Positions 1 through 32,389 of a stretch of DNA of 64,000 nucleotides are shown here, piece by piece (the first letter of the stretch is position 1; every line of letters starts with the position of its first letter). Origin of the DNA: Pomacea canaliculata (lineage: Eukaryota > Mollusca > Gastropoda > Architaenioglossa > Ampullariidae); NCBI RefSeq assembly GCF_003073045.1, contig NC_037593.1, forward strand, positions 19,814,812 through 19,878,811, in the 5' to 3' direction. The notes under the pieces are model-generated. The model was not told the DNA's origin and made no database searches. It worked only from the letters and a program-made list of their open reading frames with translations. A program made the position numbers and the translations under genes.

Positions 1-3000
1 ATCAGACCTCAGGTCAGCAATGGGGAGATCACTGAGTATCAGCTGCGCGTGGACGGAACAGTAGTGTACAAAGGGTTGGAGATGGAGCACACAGTGTCGG
101 GACTTACTTCCTATAAAGATTACTCCTTCACTCTAACAGCCTGTACCCAGGGAGGATGCACGCAAAGCCCCCCGTCACAGGGCGCACCGACGATGCCCCT
201 CCCACTGACCTCGATCCTCCCGTCCTGCGCGTTCTGGGCTCCACGGGGATCGAAGTTTCATGGTCACCGCCGAGAAACCCTAACGGCGTCATCGCCTCCT
301 ACGACGTGCGGCGCGGTGGACAGTTGGTATTCACCACGGCCATCAACCCTGCGGGAAACATCCAGAACACCTACACCGACTACGGCCTGCGGCCAGGTGA
401 GGAGTACACATACACCATCATCGCCCGCAACAGCAAAGGCAGCATTGAAAGCCCTCCCGCCACGGCCCGCACCTACTCTTCTTCTCCCTCGGGCCTGGCC
501 CCGCCTACTTTGGAGCCCCTCTCCTCTACTGCCATCCGAGCATCGTGGACGCCGCCCATCAACCCCAACGGCAGGATCGCCAACTACAGCCTGTATCGTA
601 ATGACAGCTTGGCGTACTCGGGCGGTCCTGATCAGCTGACCTACACCGTGCCGGGTCAATTTCTTCACGCGCTACACCTTCCGCCTCCAAGCTTGCACGG
701 ACAGCGGCTGCGCGCTTACTGAACCCGTTACCGCGCAGACGCGGGAGGCGGCGCCAGAACTACAGGAAGCGCCCTCCCTGACAGCGCTGGCCAGCGAGGC
801 CGGGGCCCACCTGGGTGTGATGGCTACCTGGCGCCCACCTGTCAGACCCAACGGTGTCTTGCTGAGCTACCAGCTGCAGAGGAGGGCTGTTACGCAGCTT
901 GATGCGGGTAAGCCTTCCATTCCGCGGGAAGTAAATTGCTTTTTTTCAAGACTGTAATTTAAAAACAAATACAAGATATTGTGATATTGTAACCGGTGTT
1001 GGATTAAAGTTTTTTTGAGGATAGGTTGCGCCTACTGTGTGCCGTCCCATTATGAGCAGGTGAGCTGTACGGGGACCCGCTGTTGGTGTACAACGGCACT
1101 AACCTGCAGGTGACCGACACGGATCCGCGCGTGCTACCATACCACACGTATCAGTATATGGTCAGCTCGGTCAACAGCGCCGGTACGGCCTCGAGCCAAT
1201 GGGCTCGCGTCACCACCAGACAGGCGCCGCCTGCGGCACTCGATGCACCTGTCATATTGGTGAGCGTACAAGACGCAGGCTTTTGGACCTGCATCAGCCT
1301 TACATTCCAACAGAAAAATAATTGTAATAAATAGTCCCCATCCAAATATTCCTACTGAAAGACAAAAATAAAAGTTACACGAAAGGCTCAGTAGCAAAGT
1401 AACGCTGTAATACTGAGAGTGCAGATTTCTAACTCGCTGATGTTTTCCACAGAGTGTTACGACGACAACCATCACAGTTCTTATCACACCACCAGCACAA
1501 CCCAATGGCGTCGTGAAGCTGTACAATGTCTTGGTGGATGGAGAAGTGGTAAGTAGAGCACGTTGAGAATGGAAAGGAGGGAATGCTACTTACTGATTGT
1601 TTTCTTTCATTTTCGGTTTTCTCTCTCTCTCTCTCTTCCTTTCCCACCTTTGAGTTGGTCGATCGCATCTAGTGGCCACCAATAAACATATATTGTGTAC
1701 TGTCCCTATGTGTGCGTGTTTATCTTTCACGGAGCAGCGATTGGCTTCGTTGCTCGCGTCGGGCTCGCGAGTGCTTGTCGTGTGACTGTGAGTGTGCCTG
1801 TGAGAGCAACGCGTGGTCGCGTTACGCGACAGGACAACTCTGACTTTTCGTTACAAATGAGTGGGTTTTTGCCTACCAATTAATTTATAGAAATAACATA
1901 CATGACGGTTTTTAATTCCTGGAAATAACATTTTGATAATTATTGCTAAGATCAGCGTCTTGAAGACTCTAAAGTCAGGTTCAAATCTATTCGGCGTCCT
2001 GTTCACAGGCAGCTTCAGGCTTGACCCTTCAGCAGACGGCGGGAGATGCTGTGCCCTGTTTCCATTCACCTCCTACACCGTTCAGGTTCAAGCCTGCACC
2101 AGCGGGGGCTGCACCAACAGCAGCGGGGTGACTGTTAGGACGACAGCGGCCAAACCGTCAGGCCTGAAGCCCATCGTAGTAGTGGAGACCAACAGCTCTG
2201 CCATGGCTCTAGCGTGGACTTACCCTAGCAGTTCTAATGGAGTCATACTCAGGTAGGTGTACACAAGCGGGAAGGGTGGTGCACAAGGAATCAAACATGT
2301 TGATACGCGAGTGGTATTCACCGATATTACGAACGTCTTCACACATAATGTTCATTTTTGAACACCTGCGTGTAGCATAGTAGTTCTTTTTCAACTTATA
2401 CGCTAATGTTATTAGCACTGTAATCGTGTCAGAAGGAAGCGAGAAGAGTAGAGGCATCAATACAGAATCACTTTCGAAAAGATTCAAGCAAAATCAGCAT
2501 TGTAGGGAAATGTGTTGATCTGACTCCCTGCAAACTCGAATTCCATGTGATGCCTTAGTGACACTCTGTCTATGAAGTCGTTACCTTGGTGATATTCTGT
2601 TTGCAAAGTTATTACGCTTGTGACACTGTTTCCGAAGTCATTGCCTTAGTGACTGTCTACGGTCATGACCTGAACTGTCAGGACTGCAGGTGCAGCAGCA
2701 GCTGTTCATGTGTACTCTGCATGTCGCAGGTTCGTCGTGTACCGCCGTCTGGCCTGTCCCCTCGCTGAGCAACCTTTCTCTCAGCCAGCCTGCGTCCCCG
2801 GAGACGCACAGGAGGTGTACCGGGGACTGGACACGATCCTGACCACCAGCGGGCTGGCCTCCTACACGGCCTACGAGTTCCTCCTGCAGGCGGAGAACGA
2901 GCTCGGCTCCGTCGACCTCCCCGTGTGGGTCAGAGCCGTCACGGCGCCGGCAGGTATGTGTCTGGACAACCGCTTGCGTGAATGGCATGAACTGGTCGAA

Positions 3001-18300: not shown

Positions 18301-20001
18301 GCAGTTTTGTATTTCATGCAAGCAGGCGACATCTTTGCGCATATATTTGCTTGGGGGTGTATAACTGTGTGACTTATAATTATTATGCGGGTGCTAATTC
18401 CGTGGAAAGAGGGCTACCCGTGCTTTATAGCGACTATTGAGTGTGTGTGTGTGTGTGAGGTGTGCGAACACGTGGAAAGCAGGTGACGTGATGACAACTA
18501 CTGACATCGTTTGGCCACAGGTTAAACATCTGGCCTTTCCTTTGTCAGCAATGATCACTTAAGAATTAATTTTATTTCAGAGGATAGCAGATCCACATCC
18601 ACGTCTTCCAAGTTTAATTTAACACTTGTACCTCGCAGCACCACAACAAACACAGGTTCCACTCTCTGCGCTCACCAAACGATAAGAAAGGACACGTGGA
18701 ATAACCTCCCCCCACCCCCGAAAAAAAAATAAAATCAAACAAACCACTAGCTAACAATGAAATTACAAAAACATGACCGCATGGTTGATAGGGAGCTTAA
18801 CATGTTTCCGGATGAATTACTGAAACGTGTTTAGGTATATTCTGATGTTCTGAATTCTCTGGAGTCGTTAGCGTTAACTCTACGGTGATCACACTTTACA
18901 GCCGGAAAGCAATGAGTCCTCGCATTGTTCTTCCCTCTACATCTTTGTTTTACATCTTTGTTACTATTTTGTGATCTTGCTCAGCGCAGTGAGTCCGCCT
19001 TTGGCTGAGATATTGCGCTTTAATAATTCCCACATGATGATGATGATTATTATTATTGACATATGTAACATTTGAAGTCTTCACTTGCCGCGTACCCAAG
19101 AAGTCAGTCTGTCGCTACTTCAGACATCCCCTCCATGGTCTTCTGCAGACACATGTGTCACATGTCACTCGCTTGTGATTGTTTTTAGGTTAGTGGGTCA
19201 GTGTGCCAAGCTTGATCTAAATAGTGCAAAGAGCGATACCAATGTTACCCCAAGAAATGTACACCGTCGGCTGAGGACTTTTCAGGCTTCATCGATGCCA
19301 GCACTTTCTGGTTTTCTGGAGCTGCAATACTTAGTGGTTTCTGGTGTTTGTTCGAGCTCAGACTGGAGTTACCAGACGACGTTCTAGTGACGATTCAACA
19401 GCCCGACCTCCTCGCCGTCTGGCCCTTCTCCTCACATTGAATCCCCCGTTAAAATATTATTTATATATTATTATATCAAATATTACTAGTACGAAGTCAC
19501 ATACTTTATAAGAAAATACACTTTTTTCTTTCATCTATTCTTTGTACTTATGAGAGTTTCCACAGCTGTAACGTTTAGTAGGTATTTTTGTCAGTAGTGT
19601 CGATCACGATGGCATCCCAACCTTGTCATTGCCGATATTTCAAGACAGTCTCAACTAAATTAAGTCATCCGATTTTAAAACAGAGGTTCAGTCGTGATGG
19701 ATTTAATGGAGTTAAATGAAAATATAGTAATAATAAGCAGATAAACTTTGAAAATACGGCAAATCAACAAAGTCAGGAAAATGTTATAAAGACGTGACTC
19801 TTGACAAGCTACTTACAAAGTAGACACAACTTTCATTGTGCGTGTTGTTTGCCTGCATCAAGAAACAAACTTCCCGAAATCAAAGAGGTGTAGAGTGAGT
19901 GGTATGGCCCAACTTCTCGTTAAATGGATCTTTTTGTGATCAGTCGTGCTTATTATTCCGGTAGACATTCTCTCATACTTTGATTCAATATTTGGTTTCA
20001 G
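15374..20001. other. Intergenic stretch, mostly simple sequence
   Basis: AT-rich, with CT, GT/CA and GATGAT microsatellites (16,434; 16,898-16,940; 17,764; 18,440) and a CRE palindrome TGACGTCA at 17,812-17,819. A short open stretch at about 19,274-19,438, + (FIDASTFWFSGAAILSGFW), follows TTTTCAG but could not be tied to any family. No supported gene. Confidence 0.35.
18970..19058 (+). repeat. Retroposon 3'-tail-like sequence
   Basis: CAGCGCAGTGAGTCCGCC and GAGATATTGCGCTTTAATAA followed by ATGATGATTATTATTATT resemble the widespread tail pattern (GCGCTTTGAG..., GGAAA-GCGCTATATAA, then ATT repeats) seen at the 3' end of many SINE and LINE families. Related tails lie near 40,022, 40,700 and 51,376. 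Confidence 0.35.
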
Positions 20002-21541
20002 GTTTTCCCAATTGCGAGCTCCCATATGAGCTATCCCCCAGCATCAACGACATTCTAGATGTCAAAACAGCTGCAAAACTAATTCGAGCTGACAATGCCT
20101 TTAAGAACGTATACACCGACTATGCAGCCAAAAGCAGTGACCTCCTCGGAACCCCAAACAAAAAGATCCCACGTGACCAGCGGAACCTCTCTTCCCGACG
20201 AATGTCGGGAGTCGGTGAAGACGATACTCGGCAGCATCAGGTCGACGACAGTCGTATGCTCGGCAGCAACTCCAGACATAGTGTGTCCTCCTGGATACGG
20301 GGGCTTCTGACAGCAAATGTCTCGACTCACCAGCGGCGCCTAAACTTCTGTCAGGGTTGACGTGGGTCCACTCGACTGACTCTTGCCCTTGTACACACCA
20401 CCGGACATGGTCCCATGGGTGTGGTACAGTCCAGTCCAATGAAGACCCAATTTCAGCGTTTAAAAGAAAAGGTGACGGCAGGCAGATTGGCTCAAGAGAC
20501 GTTGCTGACGATTCTCAACAATTCCTTGATCTCTTTCCTACGGACACTACTTTCCCAATGGAAGTCAGCATGCCGTCTCTGTCCAGAACAGATGGTTTGT
20601 GTAGTCGGGACACTAACCCGCCAATGCACTTTTCCAGGGCAGGTCATCATCTTCAGCGCGGAATGCACTATCCGCCTTCCCAACACTACCCGAACTGACC
20701 TCCACATCCGCATCGCCTACGCCAACCTTGATTCCTACACCCGGTGTCAGAGCCATACCTTTGTCTCATTCCTCCACCTTCCCAACATCCTCCACGATTT
20801 TCAGTCAGCCCCCTGGGTTTTGTTTCTTGCCCAGCGCCAACCCTAAATCTCTTAAAAGGACGTTCAGGTCTGATGGCCTGGACAGTTTGTCTACGACGTC
20901 TGACAGCGTCGACGTCCGGTCTAGCTCGCCAATCTCTTCGCCATCCTGCATTCGAGACCCGCAGAGGTCCTCGCGCCCACAGGCAGGAAAAATAGCGGTC
21001 CACAGCAGAACATCAGCGGTTGAGGCGAAAGTCATCGATGTTCAGAAGAGAACCAGGTCACCACAGACTCCTCTTTCTCGTCCTCATCAACAACAGCACG
21101 CTCTGAAGATTCTGCCTCCCTGCAGCGGTCCTTCAAGAGGCAGCCCACAGCAACTCTCGGATTTTCACCCAACGAACTGGCATCGCGGCCTCAAGAACGA
21201 CAGCTGCATCTGGTCTCTGCGTCATCCCAACACCCTTTTATCGGCCTCTAGACTGCCGTTCCCCTCGCACAGCCAGCTACACCGGGATCGACGAAAGCAT
21301 CATCGCATTCAGAGACGAAGACTTTGGCCATATCCAGACCACCAACAGATGACAATGTCACCGCGTGGCCAGCTTCATCGCCGGCATGACGATGAGGACG
21401 GTGGCTGGTCGACGTATGTTTGCCGCCGAGGCTGTCGATCTGGTTCTTCGTGTCCATCATCGGCCGGTTCGTCAAGAATGTCTTCGTCGCCCCCATCATC
21501 TTCAATGAACAACGATGGGGAGAGTTCGGTGAATGATGAGG
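20002..21541 (+). CDS. Unassigned exon-like coding block
   Basis: A clear acceptor (TTTGGTTTCAG) precedes 20,002, and G|GTAAGT follows 21,541. Protein-like sequence is present but in three frames in turn. First, from 20,002: GFPNCELPYELSPSINDILD, continuing with KTAAKLIRADNAFKNVYTDY. Next, about 20,405-20,695: DPISAFKRKGDGRQIG, then QQFLDLFPTDTTFPMEVSMP. Last, about 20,630-21,541: ALSAFPTLPELTSTSASPTP, then RTFRSDGLDSLSTTSDSVDV and further Ser/Pro-rich sequence. Composition suggests a largely disordered C-terminal region. Frame changes may be sequence errors like those in USH2A, hidden introns, or pseudogene decay. I recognise no family, and no upstream exons could be linked. Confidence 0.3.
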
Positions 21542-21679
21542 GTAAGTTACTTGCTTTGACATTACTTGTTCTGTTGTACAGAGCTCGTGATGCAGGCGGT
21601 CTCTGGGTTACCACCGAGTCATGTACCTGGCCGTCTGAAGTAACCTCTTACGATTTGTCTGTAATATCAGTCCGTTATC

Positions 21680-21703
21680 TTTAATAATATAATAATAATA
21701 ATA

Positions 21704-21771
<68 letters not shown>
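21680..21771. repeat. (AAT)n microsatellite
   Basis: Nearly perfect AAT array of about 30 units; produces a poly-Ile ORF on the minus strand that is not real. Confidence 0.97.
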
Positions 21772-21962
21772 AAATACATAACAAACTAGTTCCAGTGTTC
21801 ACTAGTCACTACTACTGTAACGTTTTTTTATTACTCGGATTTCTAAATCAACAGGCTTTCTGGAAGTTCGATCGTAAATATGGATGTCCGTAACTCGGAC
21901 GTTTCTTAGCCGGGGCTGCCTGTATCAACAGAATTCGTCTCATGCAGTTGCCAACATCAGTA

Positions 21963-21965
<3 letters not shown>

Positions 21966-21994
<29 letters not shown>
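21966..21994. repeat. (GT)n microsatellite
   Basis: Uninterrupted GT run of about 14 units, followed by a short CG alternation. Confidence 0.95.
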
Positions 21995-21997
<3 letters not shown>

Positions 21998-22485
21998 CGC
22001 GCGTTAACGTTAACATAGAGTGATAATAAGGAGTAGAAGCCACAGTACAAAATTCCCCCTTTCATTCCAATGGTCAGCGACCTATGTAAACAGCAGTCAC
22101 CCGTGAAGTAGAAAGTACAGACTAAAATATCTCCCTCGTCAAATAATTGTTGTAATATTTTCATAGTCAACAACGATTTTCAGCTTTTGATATTGTGTGT
22201 GCCTGGTTGGTATGGTTACGGATGATAATCTCCATGAATAATTTATGTTGGACATTTGAGCACGTGCTGTCGATTTTTCAAAGAACCGGCACGTGCAGCG
22301 TGATGATGACTTCAAGTGCGAGGGCGGGCGGCACAGCCAGCAAGAGGAAGCGGAGGAATGGGTAGTGGTGGTTCGATTGTCCTGTTTGGAGCTGTGCAGG
22401 CCTATTTTAGTCTTCTACTCGATTATCGTTATTTTTGTGTCAACACAATGTCTGATGACAAAAACCCAGATCTTGACCCCCCTTC

Positions 22486-22551
22486 CCACCACCACCATTA
22501 TCACTACCACCATCACCACCACCACCACCACCACCACCACCACCACACACA
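22486..22551. repeat. (CCA)n microsatellite
   Basis: CCA/CAC array with a few ATT and ACT interruptions at its left side. Gives artefactual poly-His, poly-Thr and poly-Trp ORFs. Confidence 0.95.
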
Positions 22552-23700
22552 ATAGCGTATTTTAAGCGTGCTTGAGTGACAGAAGGGAATCAGACTTTTG
22601 CTCTTACCGTGCGAACGAAAAAATAAAATGTTGACGCAACTAGGATGAGAGGGAAGGCTGAGCGCAGAGAAGGAAGCCAAAGACAGAAGTGCGTAGGAAG
22701 CAGGGTGCAGATCAATGACACTGTTCACGTGCCTGTCACTTGTCTGGCTTCATTGTGCAAGGCACGTGGGGGTGGTTTTCAAGTTCACGGCGAGACAAGT
22801 GGGGCAAACACGTGAGCCTTCGCCGTTTAGGTTGTTTGCGTGAACCAGAGTTTTGCTGACCACCCTCGCGACAGATGGTCTTCGGGTCAGCTTCCTTGGT
22901 CCTTCAGGACGTCCGTCTGTCTCAGTCCTGCTGCATCTGCTGAAAAAAACAATAGTTCAGGCTGGACAAGATTGGCTTTCTGTGACAATTTTATCAGTGA
23001 TATCATCTGATGTCGATAACCTTAGGCAGACGCTGGTCACCAGCTTCTGAAGCTGTCTCCCAAGTTTGTTTACCTCACAAGGAATAACACCGTCTGATGA
23101 CCCAACAGTAGTTGCAGATGTTGTTGTCGTGTGATATCGACACAGATGCAAAGCTCTGTCTGATGAACTGTTTTGCCTCACATTTCGCGGTGTACCCGAT
23201 CACGAATTTGAAGAAAAAAATTGTGCTCTTGGTTAATTGAGGACAGAGGAAGACTGAATGCGTTCTGTGTCTTAGAAAATAGTTCTGGATCTTTTTTGTT
23301 GCCTTGATCTTGCAACTGGATCACAATGACCTGTATCTCTGGTGGTACATTTCTTTTCTCGGACTGCTGGTAAGCGGGACCTCAGCTGAGGCTAAATCAG
23401 CTTTATCATTGTCTTTGGATTTGCACGCTCGTTCATTCAGTCTGTGTAGTCCGGCCAGCGAATAGAAGTCAGTCGTCGCTGGCATCTCGAATATGGTGAC
23501 GGCATACATCTCAATTAAACTCCCGGCTCACCTCTTACAGCAGGATGAAGGCGAGCCAGGCCTGGCCGGGGGGATGGACTTTCTGGTTGTGGGTACCGTC
23601 CGCACAGAGACCATCAGCGGCTTGGCTTTGCTGACCAAAGCTGGAGGCAGCTTTCTGGAGGGAGAGGGAGGTAAGGGTTATGTGCAGTGTCGTTACTGCA

Positions 23701-23772
23701 ACACACACAATGCACACACACATGCACACACATATGCACACACACATGCACACACACACACACACACACACA
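23701..23772. repeat. CA microsatellite with ATG-interrupted units
   Basis: Repeated CACACA blocks separated by TGCA or ATGCA steps, ending in a pure CA run. The His/Thr-rich ORF through it is not a gene. Confidence 0.93.
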
Positions 23773-24716
23773 ATGATTTGGGACAAAACTTGAAAAAAAC
23801 AGGGCATCGTCTTTGGGAATTAACAATTGAGAAAGCAAAATTAGTTTAGAGAATCCTGCCTCCTGGTGGCGGCTATGCTAGACAGCGTTCTTGTGGTTTG
23901 GTGAGAAGGACACTGACAGACATCTGTAACTAATTGTAACTAATTGTTTATCATAATAGACTGACAGATAGCTGTCATTTGTTTAGCAAGTCATGTCTGC
24001 AGTGACAATGAATCCCAGATTCCTGACGGAGGACGCAAAAGGTGATGTTGGTTTCATCCACCTTGATGTGACTTAAGGTGGACAATGACATTAACTAGTA
24101 CACTTTGATCGCGCCGACGCTGATCCTAATTCTGACGACCATGCAGTTAGAGGATCTTTACAATAGCTGTGAATGTTCAAAGTACTACACACGTTACAGA
24201 AAGGAGTGTTCACATGACATGTGGAGGAAACATGTGATCCTGTAGAGAGTTGACAACACAGCGACCTTTCGGCAGATAAGCAGAATCTGTTTATAGTCTC
24301 ATTGCGTCTTGTTTTTTTTTTAATGGACTATATAATACTGATCATCGACCACAAATAAACAATCCCGAAAATACCTGTATTTCACAATTATTTTGATGTC
24401 AGCCATTTCTGGGGTAACTTTTTCATTAATTTTTAAAACTGATTAATTATGACTTACATAACCTGTCTTTTTTCTGAATAACCTTTGAAAAAAAAAAAAA
24501 AGATTTCAACTAAAACTTGAAGACGCATGTCGAGAGCTCTGTGTGTGCGAGAGAGAGCTTGGATAAAAACAGAAATTGTCACGCGAGTTTATTTTTTGGA
24601 AATGTTTTTAATTGTTCCCAAGGCACGTAGCCAGCAGGCTGTACGCCATAGCGCGCTAGGGGGTTTCCATTCGGAAATGGCTCGGAGTTATTCGGAAGTA
24701 GTTCCGAAGGCAGCAG

Positions 24717-24791
24717 CCAATGGGATGTCGACATGGTTCGGGCTCGTTACCGTGTCACGTGCGGCAGGCAGTAGTAGCGTACAGACACGTG
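24717..24791 (+). promoter_or_regulatory. Probable CIPC promoter: CCAAT box and paired E-boxes
   Basis: A CCAAT at 24,717-24,721 is followed by two perfect CACGTG E-boxes at 24,756-24,761 and 24,786-24,791, 30 bp apart start to start. The region lies about 0.9 kb before the first coding exon of the CIPC homologue, whose exon begins with a splice acceptor, so at least one 5' non-coding exon must lie upstream. CACGTG is the CLOCK:BMAL1 (cycle) binding site. The promoter role is inferred from position and motifs; the first exon was not resolved. Confidence 0.5.
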
Positions 24792-25667
24792 AGTGGCCGC
24801 GTTGAACGGCGTAACAACATGGAGGCCTTCTGCTGCTCGACGCACGTACAGCGATAACTTTCTTACTTTGCAGCAATGGATCGGGAAAGACTGTTAGTTA
24901 CTTTTTGTTTAACTTTGATTCTATGCTTGCTACATTAAGATTCGTATATATCATAATCTGCAAAAGTTTGAGAAGCTAGTAAGACTTCCTGTCGGGGCAT
25001 TGCCATGGTTTCCTTGAGTCGAATATTCAGCCCAGCAGAAGTAGAGGGCAAGTCCAACAAATTTTCGGAATTATAATCTAGTATCTGTTACTGTTGAGCA
25101 ACGTATCATCGTGCATCTGTATTTTCAGTTTGATAACCGCTACTGTTGTCTACTGAATGAGACGTATCTCGACATAGCTTCTGATAACTTGTTATTTAGA
25201 CGTGAAATTTTTAGTTACAGGGTCTTATGACGTTTGTCGTTGATTTCTCCAGTTTCTTGTTTATCACCTCTGTTAATTAGAATTATTTGAAGACTGACAG
25301 CTTTATGGATCCTTAATAGGTCTTTTGGCTTTAAACAGCGTGTGCCTATGGGGTACATACATAAGATTGTATTGATAATCTAACATAAATCATGTAAAAG
25401 AGGCATGCAGTCTATCCACATTTGTGATTTTTGACACTGAATGCCATAAGAACGTAAGTATAATAACTGTGAGTTATGTAATTGTTTACCCAGCCAATCA
25501 TAAATGTTACACATCTTTATACCTATAGCATTTACAGACTTTTAACACTTCCAGTAAGCCCGTGGGTACTTAACTACTGAATACAAAATAATTATGTTTT
25601 TGTTGATGAAATGTATAGAGCTTTTTTTTTTTAATTTTCAGAGCTGTGTCATTTTGATGGATACAGA

Positions 25668-28058
25668 ATGGCACCTGCACAGAATAACTCCTTTGATTTC
25701 TACATGGCTGAAAATATATACAGTGATGTTCCTAGTGACACAGAAGAGACAAACTTTGATTCTCTTTTGGACCAATGCAAGATTCCACCTTACCAAGATA
25801 CGCAGCAACAACAGTGTATGTCTGACACTGGTGGAATGGGTGATGTGGGTGAGGGGTTTGACCTTATGTGTGATATCAGCTCTTCACACCTCACCTTGGA
25901 GGAGGATGTGGAGCAAAGTGTAGCAAGCTCTGTTTCAGGTATTGTAAATGTTGTCATAAAAGTTTTTAAAAATAGGCGCTGAGATTGTGAGTTTGACAAA
26001 GGATAACAGAAAAGACTGTGGTTGGACTGGCGACAAATTTGCAGTTTGGATGAATGTTTTTCTTTTCAAGATATTGCACCAATTTCTGTGATAAAATCAG
26101 AACAACAAATCATTAGAATGTACTTACTAATATGCTGAGACTTCTGTCCTGTACGTGTGGCATGAATAGGTTAGGTAGCGCACATGTTGCCGATACTGAC
26201 ACAGTTGTAAAGAGTCTTTCATAATTCATATCTATTAATCAGAATGTCTTAGGGTTAATTTTTTTTTTTATCAGCATTAGTTATATTTTACCTTTTGTAG
26301 GCAGTCTTCAAACATCCATTTTGGCAAGGTTGAAAGATCCATTACCTCAATTATATTGGTGATATAATAAGATATAAGTACACAGTCAAGAGACTGAAAT
26401 ATTATCAATGCTGAGAATAAATTTGAAATTATTGGTGTATTCATAACACGCACTTCTAGTGTATTTTGATAAAGCAGTTCATGTATTTAAGTTAAAGTAT
26501 CGATTGAAATAGGCTGTTTTCTTTATGTTTGTCTTTAGCAAGGTGCGATGTGTCCTTGGGTCCCTCCAGCACGTTTGTTAATGTTAGTCACAGAAGTCCA
26601 AGTCCACTCTCAGCTGTTTCACAGGCAGCTACTGCTGGTACACATTTTGACTCCAACTGGCCAAGTGTTTCTGATGGTGAGCAATTATCAACCACATTCT
26701 AGCTCAGGGGCGGGCAATTAATTTTCCCAAAGGGCCGCATGAGAAATTGGGATGGTTTTAGAGGGCCGGACTAATATAGTTAACTCAGTTTTACCCAATA
26801 CTGTATATATAGTATATATAGTGGACGGGCTGGCCGGATCCTGCCTGCGGGCCGGCCTTTGCCCAGGTCTGTTCTAGCTGGTCATTTATTATATTTTTGT
26901 AGATTTTCTATCATTCCTGTTTTTGCAGAATTTTTAGTTTATTAAAATTTCTGCATTTGTACAAAAGGTTAAATTATTATTAGTATTATAGAAGGAAAAG
27001 AGAACTTTTCTTTCAAAGAATATGACTACTTCTTAACAAGATCTGCCAAATTAGAGGTATCAAAATTATGGAAATGAATAATATGATGTTCACATAATAG
27101 GCCTTGGATTTTACAGATGATGGTGACAGTTGTTCCATGCAAAAAGAAGAAAAGGAAGTGAACAGTACTGTTGGCCAGAATAAAGTAAGCAAAACTGGAA
27201 AATATGCTAAGTGCATCCCTAACATTATTGTATACTTCATATTTATTATCTTGATTGAAAGTTTTTCTTACGGTCTGTAGTAGTATGTTAAATATATTCA
27301 TATACCAAGAGAGATATATTTTCTAATTAACTTTTTTAAAACAGGAGTCACCTGTTGAAATTCCAAGCCGACGACAGCCTCTGCCTGATTACCAGACCAT
27401 GACACCATGGACCAATGACAGCTTACGTCAAGCCAGTAGCATATTTTACCCTCCAAGTCATGAAATTCCTTGTTTCATGTTGAATCCAAATGTTTTGGAG
27501 GGTCAAGAGAGGACCAAAAGTCCAAAAGCCTCACCACCCCAGCACTCTCCATCTGTTAACCGATCTTCTACAGCTGTCACCACAACAGTAGACAGCCCGA
27601 CTCTTAGGCAGCCCAGTCTTGTCTCTCGCATGTATGCTTCAAAGGCATCGCTTCCTTCATTAGCTGCACAACGTCTCAGTAGAGAAAAACGGTTTAGAAA
27701 AACGGCTGAAGCCTTGCATAAATGTGGTTTGTGGGACATAGCGATGAAGACAGGCACCTTGGTGAAACGCAATTCTGAACTGCAAAAGGAGATAGATGCA
27801 TTTCGGGCTGAGGCCATGGCATTCCTAAAATCTGTGATCAGAAACCCAGAGAACAAAGATCTGAGACTGTCTTCTGCCTCTACATACAGCTTACCCACAA
27901 CACAAAACTGGTCAGTCAAAGGCACAGATAGTGGAGATTCAGACATGTCCACTGTGGGTGGCAATAAAATTTCAAGCAGCTGCAGCTCCACTACCAGTGG
28001 CTACACAACATGTCACACTGGTAGCAGCATCAGGCAGTCTAGTCCAAGCCTGAAGTGA
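25668..28058 (+). CDS. CIPC: CLOCK-interacting pacemaker (CIPC) homologue, 396 aa
   Basis: In mammals CIPC is a nuclear protein that binds CLOCK and represses CLOCK:BMAL1 transcription. Coding exons: 25,642-25,938 (ATG at 25,668), 26,539-26,676, 27,117-27,184, 27,345-28,058. Phases agree and give 396 residues, close to human CIPC (about 399). The diagnostic part is residues 274 to about 325, beginning KRFRKTAEALHKCGLWDIAM and continuing KTGTLVKRNSELQKEIDAF. The human region, as I remember it, has the same skeleton: RRF..T...LHK.GL..I..KT..L...N, then an amphipathic helix. The rest is Ser/Thr/Pro-rich and low in order, with acidic patches near the start (SDTEETNFDSLLDQ) as usual for the family. 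ATG 25,668 is preferred over 25,657 because only its frame joins the later exons. A hAT-type MITE sits in the second intron. Confidence 0.75.
26705..26871. mobile_element. hAT-type MITE, 167 bp, with 8-bp target duplication
   Basis: Ends are CAGGGGCGGGCAA and, reading in from the other side, CAGACCTGGGCAAA. The perfect 8-bp direct repeat TTCTAGCT flanks it (26,697-26,704 and 26,872-26,879). CAG..CTG ends plus an 8-bp duplication are hAT hallmarks, and GGGCCGGA / GCGGGCCGG blocks are typical of non-autonomous hAT elements. It carries no ORF and lies in a CIPC intron. Confidence 0.88.
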
Positions 28059-31743: not shown

Positions 31744-32389
31744 TCATGCAGTGGCTTTTTCATCATGATAGACTACAAGTTCATCATATCCAGTTTCACT
31801 GTCATATTCTCGCAGAAAACTAGTATTTTCGCATTCCCCTAACACTATTTCAGCTGTGGTGTAAATGTCCAGGTCACCAATAACATGCCCGCCAATAACC
31901 TTTCCATTCTTGTCACTCAAGCTGATGTGCAGATGGCCTTCTCCACCACTTAATGTTCCCACAAGGGAAACTATTTCAAATGGCCCTTCAAATGTTGTAA
32001 TCTGTAAATCAGAGAAGTGATTATTTTCTTGCCAAAATTTTGATGATGGCTGTAGAATACTATGTTTAGAAAGGGAATACTGAAGTAGCTAGAAAGCAGA
32101 TAATTTGATACCAAAAAATGACTGGCTTCCATCTTGCCTGCATTTGCAGTTAAAGAATATTACAGCAAGCAAGAGGACACTTTAGTGTGTGAGACATAAA
32201 GAATTAAAAGAGAGAAAGAGACTGATCTTACAGTTTTGGAATTGGCCATACGAAGGGTTGCCCTCAAGACACTCCCAACGCAGGTAACAATGAATGCAGC
32301 TTTTAACTTTTGATCCTGGACATAGTGCATGAGCGTTGTCTTCAACTCCTGGCCAGGCTTCAGCCTCAGTGGCATGCAGCGCATGGGCA
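31744..32389 (-). CDS. PPC (DUF296) domain protein, first exon not found
   Basis: Exons on the minus strand: 32,389-32,232 and 32,001-31,744, joined in phase 0 (donor GTAAGA, acceptor TTTACAG). The 137 residues include PLRLKPGQELKT, AAFIVTCVGSVLRATLRMAN, TFEGPFEIVSLVGTLSGGEG, HLHISLSDKNGKVIGGHVIG and YTTAEIVLGE. This is a complete PPC fold of the short bacterial/animal type, which in plants is fused to AT-hooks. The conserved His residues (HLH, GGH) may bind metal; function in animals is not established. The exon begins at CTCTAG|TG in phase 1, so a short upstream coding exon is likely; alternatively translation starts at the ATG at 32,385. It is convergent with CIPC and divergent from UBR7. 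Confidence 0.85.

Follow-up and report, generated by a model that had tools for sequence, protein, structure and literature searches.

Structure of the snail CIPC gene

The DNA analysed, a stretch of 64,000 nucleotides of Pomacea canaliculata that we call the window, carries on its forward strand a gene of the CIPC family. Its coding exons are numbered 2–5, with exon 1 presumed to be non-coding and the transcription start likewise presumed. Exon 2 (25642–25938) is an open frame that begins at an AG acceptor, ends at a GT donor and contains the start codon ATG at 25668. Exons 3 (26539–26676) and 4 (27117–27184) are each preceded by AG and followed by GT, while exon 5 (27345–28058), the last coding exon, follows an AG, ends with the TGA at 28058 and holds a CiPC Pfam match of 52.3 bits. 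When joined according to splice borders and translation, the four exons are in frame from the ATG to the TGA and encode 396 amino acids, confirming the product length given in a preliminary description of this DNA. Mammalian CIPC is of nearly the same length, which we take to be ~399 residues (about 400).

The predicted CLOCK-binding helix of the product (residues 274–325) is encoded at 27687–27842 on the forward strand. The preliminary description had recognized in it the skeleton LHKxGLxxIxxKTxxLxxxN of mammalian CIPC. We find this skeleton in the snail helix (LHKCGLWDIAMKTGTLVKRN), of which residues 279–324 align without gaps to the CIPC chain 5vji_C.

Several other open frames lie in the surrounding DNA, which we annotated in part by searching Pfam with 15 of the 804 open frames of at least 40 aa in the window. 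A Ser/Pro-rich open frame of 355 codons without a Pfam match occupies 20617–21681 on the forward strand. Its donor after 21541 is a good one and agrees in phase with CIPC exon 2; the frame may belong to a gene of its own or represent an alternative exon upstream. The two other reading frames contain open frames at 19965–20357 and 20282–20695. Near CIPC, an open frame on the reverse strand (31747–32088) contains a PCC (DUF296) domain (PF03479) scoring 62.3 bits; the name of this family refers to plants and prokaryotes, and here it occurs in an animal genome. At the left edge of the window (1–2253, forward strand) two open frames contain fibronectin type III-like stretches, both scoring below the Pfam cut-off.

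Family membership and copy number

In a search of the 396-aa product against Pfam, CiPC (PF15800) was matched with an E value of 1.6e-13 and 51.7 bits, well above the curated cut-off of 27 bits. The match spans residues 141–326 of the product and positions 151–329 of the 338 in the profile, and no other Pfam family was reported at E values up to 10. Among 177,635 PDB sequences, the best of four matches was 5vji_C, the CLOCK-interacting pacemaker (E 0.0011, residues 279–324), in which 15 of the 46 aligned residues are identical as counted by eye; the other three matches had E values of 0.64 or worse. A six-frame search of the whole genome (440,159,624 bases in 24 contigs) gave one CiPC match, which is the present gene.

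These results bear on a rival possibility, namely that the product is a coiled-coil protein of other origin whose likeness to CIPC arose by chance or convergence. That the PDB match is confined to a short helix and that the first 140 residues fall outside the Pfam match would fit such a protein. Against it, the Pfam match extends over residues 141–326 with no competing family, and the best structural match is CIPC itself. A chance coiled coil is rejected because Pfam reports CiPC alone, and we regard this origin of the resemblance, largely refuted already by the Pfam match, as highly improbable. Judged by its sequence, the snail gene is thus a real member of the CIPC family, as indicated by both Pfam and the solved CLOCK-binding helix.

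The preliminary description went further and called the gene a true CIPC orthologue. The family profile, the match to the solved helix and the single copy speak for this part of the claim, whereas the gene neighbourhood lends it no support. AHSA1 and SNW1, which we take to be the neighbours of human CIPC, were both located in the snail genome (two of two families) and lie on contig C8; the CIPC gene is carried by contig C4. Their position on another contig gives no support for orthology by neighbourhood and is no refutation of it either. The gene most likely represents an orthologue of CIPC whose product continues to dock on CLOCK. We infer strict orthology, CLOCK binding, repression and E-box-driven transcription alike.

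CACGTG boxes upstream of CIPC

Upstream of the coding exons we confirmed the arrangement given in the preliminary description, namely two CACGTG E-boxes 30 bp apart accompanied by a CCAAT box. The boxes are at 24756–24761, near the presumed transcription start, and at 24786–24791, with 24 bp between them; the second is also part of a donor-like CAC|GTGAGT. The putative CCAAT box, to which a function is assigned by its motif, is at 24717–24721 on the forward strand. The CpG observed/expected ratio in 24500–24999 is 1.21–1.22, the highest among the bins counted over 22000–26749. At a distance of 1.9–2.5 kb from this pair, a candidate enhancer (22261–22814) contains five more CACGTG boxes, which start at 22261, 22290, 22726, 22763 and 22809.

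Shuffled sequences were used to assess how often such arrangements arise by chance. Dinucleotide shuffling, repeated 5000 times for each stretch, yields a CACGTG pair within 40 bp in 0.04% of cases for 24300–24900 and 0.26% for 23900–24900. None of 5000 dinucleotide shuffles of 22200–22850 reached the five boxes found there (largest number, four), and none of 2000 shuffles of 22200–24900 reached the seven boxes found in these 2.7 kb (maximum, five). Eleven other palindromes counted in 22200–24900 occur no more than twice each. A local excess of CACGTG, with seven boxes in all, is therefore present upstream of CIPC. The window as a whole has 19 CACGTG compared with a shuffle mean of 10.1, a number attained in none of 100 shuffles. 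It also has four CACGTG pairs within 50 bp, with spacers of 23, 31, 40 and 24 bp; 300 shuffles average 0.13 such pairs and never exceed 2.

Mouse BMAL1/CLOCK prefers tandem E-boxes with a spacer of 6–7 bp, according to the excerpted text of PMC3043000. A tandem spacing of 6–7 bp is absent among the CACGTG pairs upstream of CIPC, and none of the weaker second boxes listed over 24500–25100 lies 6–7 bp away.

On the scale of the genome, the pattern CACGTG-N20-44-CACGTG occurs 5902 times in 440 Mb, compared with 1939 times for a reversed-pattern control, and CACGTG triplets number 1327 compared with 477 in the control. Because such pairs and triplets abound genome-wide, we rejected E-box clustering as decisive evidence. 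Many of the listed places of CACGTG pairs and triplets, all of them on contig C1, are minisatellites. At C1:272299-273281 and in other arrays of that contig, the minisatellite unit of ~45–48 bp itself bears a CACGTG, making these arrays of E-boxes. The five-box stretch upstream of CIPC was considered as a dispersed or tandem repeat and not found to be one: in a genome search that passes over simple repeats and the commonest words, 22230–22860 matches only itself, and the six tandem-repeat rows in 21500–25500 contain none of the E-boxes. For comparison, in 54 kb around CLOCK the richest 2.6 kb holds four CACGTG, and the 54 kb also contain one 30-bp pair.

A candidate CLOCK docking helix in the same genome

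The snail genome contains at least six PAS-domain exons. The CLOCK PAS-B exon has CLOCK as its best PDB match (4f3l_A, E 8.7e-26), compared with 3.3e-8 for the best non-CLOCK match, and other PAS exons match BMAL1/CYCLE (4.1e-17), PERIOD (2.4e-12) and ARNT. Four of the six were assigned in this way, and the genome has CLOCK, BMAL/CYCLE and PER. In the 54 kb around CLOCK we looked for a coiled coil resembling exon 19 by tblastn, with an exon 19 sequence as the query, and obtained a match with an E value of 0.002, the next match being at 0.94. The exon at C3:40225323-40225140, on the same strand as the PAS-B exon and 2.8 kb downstream of it, has AG/GT borders, is collinear with CLOCK PAS-B and encodes the predicted helix LHDHLVQKSERLQDTIRQQQEELRQITQQL. 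The best of its two PDB matches is 5vji_A, which is CLOCK, with 14 of 30 residues identical and an E value of 0.16 that is weak alone and gains weight from the place of the exon in the CLOCK gene. Against Pfam the helix gave nothing CLOCK-specific or above the cut-off (best 15.3 bits versus 27). On the 3' side of CLOCK (C3:40190602-40207487) there are two CACGTG triplets whose spacings are almost alike (248/169 bp in one, 247/169 bp in the other); the triplets are perhaps copies of a dispersed repeat.

Since the CIPC helix matches 5vji_C and the putative CLOCK helix matches 5vji_A, each chain of the complex solved for CLOCK and CIPC has a counterpart in this snail. In mammals, as described in part of PMC12424780, the exon-19 helix of CLOCK forms homodimers and assists cooperative binding where E-boxes stand in tandem. 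The presence of CIPC and of a counterpart of its CLOCK docking helix in one invertebrate genome argues that the contact, and not the protein alone, is ancient. What is added here, at the level of sequence, is this matching docking helix in the same genome together with the local cluster of CACGTG beside CIPC.

Invertebrate CIPC in the literature

CIPC was reportedly introduced as a clock protein in 2007, in a paper whose title is said to state that it has no invertebrate homologues, and the preliminary description took this as its premise. The premise is outdated. Excerpts of PMC4476465 (2015) name CIPC-like proteins of Aplysia (XP005109657) and sea urchin (XP800566), describe a night-peaking CIPC in Nematostella, and call CLOCK binding by invertebrate CIPC unknown at that date. 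A Drosophila CIPC orthologue that is repressed by CWO and has E-boxes in its locus is attributed to Rivas et al. 2021 in the portion of PMC8635995 consulted. The same Drosophila work is cited in a table of a 2025 review (PMC12285964), whose discussion, in the sections available, repeats the older claim of no invertebrate homologues. Cnidarian CIPC is described as rhythmic in PMC10188108 and as a possible CLK repressor in PMC11078541, both available as excerpts, with the latter stating that the Nematostella rhythm is lost in constant darkness. Of the papers listed in searches on CIPC and on Pomacea clocks, none has a title that concerns a CIPC gene of molluscs; a mollusc CIPC is named in the excerpts of PMC4476465. 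The preliminary description also placed the origin of CIPC before the protostome/deuterostome split. This is right and not new, because it is already implied by the mollusc, sea urchin, sea anemone and Drosophila proteins printed before (PMC4476465 and PMC8635995, in the parts cited above).

A possible feedback loop

We consider it quite probable that the data as a whole are best explained by a CIPC that docks on CLOCK and restrains CLOCK:BMAL; the E-boxes may then close the loop. In this model the C-terminal helix of snail CIPC would dock on the snail's own CLOCK, at the coiled coil equivalent to mammalian exon 19, and the docked CIPC would restrain the activity of CLOCK:BMAL. CLOCK:BMAL would in turn drive CIPC through the upstream E-boxes, and a CIPC that is driven by CLOCK:BMAL and represses it would form a closed negative loop. 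Clock control of snail CIPC through the candidate E-boxes is possible on the strength of the motifs. The CLOCK feedback loop through E-boxes, which the preliminary description had suggested, is a reasonable hypothesis to which we give somewhat less than an even chance.

The principal competitor to this loop accepts a CIPC orthologue that binds CLOCK and assigns the E-boxes to other bHLH factors (USF, MYC/MAX, MITF) acting at an ordinary CpG-rich CCAAT promoter, so that the gene would not be clock-driven. MYC and MITF read CACGTG. The excerpted text of PMC3043000 names USF1 as another binder of E-boxes. The joint presence of CCAAT and CACGTG in CpG-rich DNA, a spacer of 24 bp instead of 6–7 bp, and the 5902 pairs of the same spacing class in the genome are all in keeping with such factors. 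They are opposed by the density of seven CACGTG in 2.7 kb where none of the eleven other palindromes exceeds two, as well as by the rhythmic transcript of cnidarian CIPC (PMC10188108) and the E-boxes of the Drosophila Cipc locus (PMC8635995), each as given in the excerpts of these papers. On balance we hold a promoter served by other bHLH factors to be a tenable explanation of the boxes that has about one chance in three of being correct.

Mammalian CIPC has non-clock roles, and the main task of snail CIPC could likewise lie outside the clock, in growth signalling or the cell cycle for instance, with CLOCK binding as a side function. This would agree with a paper listed in PMC12285964 (seen in part), whose title states that Cipc inactivation left the circadian rhythms of mice unaltered. 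The retention in the snail genome of a counterpart for each half of the CIPC-CLOCK contact argues against it, and we judge a mainly non-clock function unlikely. Even if it is a true orthologue, snail CIPC may have only a minor place in the clock, because the Nematostella rhythm is lost in darkness and mouse rhythms are unaltered. For the preferred reading, in which CIPC docks on CLOCK and restrains it, the peptide pair and the upstream region provide concrete material for asking whether a loop through CIPC was among the early arms of the animal clock.

Comparison with known systems

In mammals CIPC damps the body clock. The snail protein shares with mammalian CIPC (PF15800; structures 5VJI and 5VJX) the family profile, the C-terminal helix with its skeleton and a length of about 400 aa. 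It differs in that its helix retains identity to 5vji_C at only the 15 of 46 positions counted, its first 140 residues are unmatched, and AHSA1 and SNW1 lie off the CIPC contig. With the printed CIPC-like proteins of Aplysia, sea urchin, Nematostella and Drosophila it shares, by their description, the occurrence of CIPC outside vertebrates. Nematostella CIPC is night-peaking, and the Cipc locus of Drosophila contains E-boxes, as does the region upstream of snail CIPC (Nematostella and Drosophila according to the excerpts cited above).

The promoters of oyster clock genes offer a further comparison within the molluscs. According to the excerpted text of PMC5224872, the main text of which does not contain the name CIPC (0 occurrences), CACGTG lies near the starts of oyster Cry2, Cry1 and Period, but four further genes of the clock or photolyase type were found to lack it there. 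Upstream CACGTG, within 2 kb of the start in the oyster, is thus shared by Cry1, Cry2 and Period of the oyster and by CIPC of the snail. In contrast to the oyster promoters, the boxes of the snail are seven in number and are found on CIPC.
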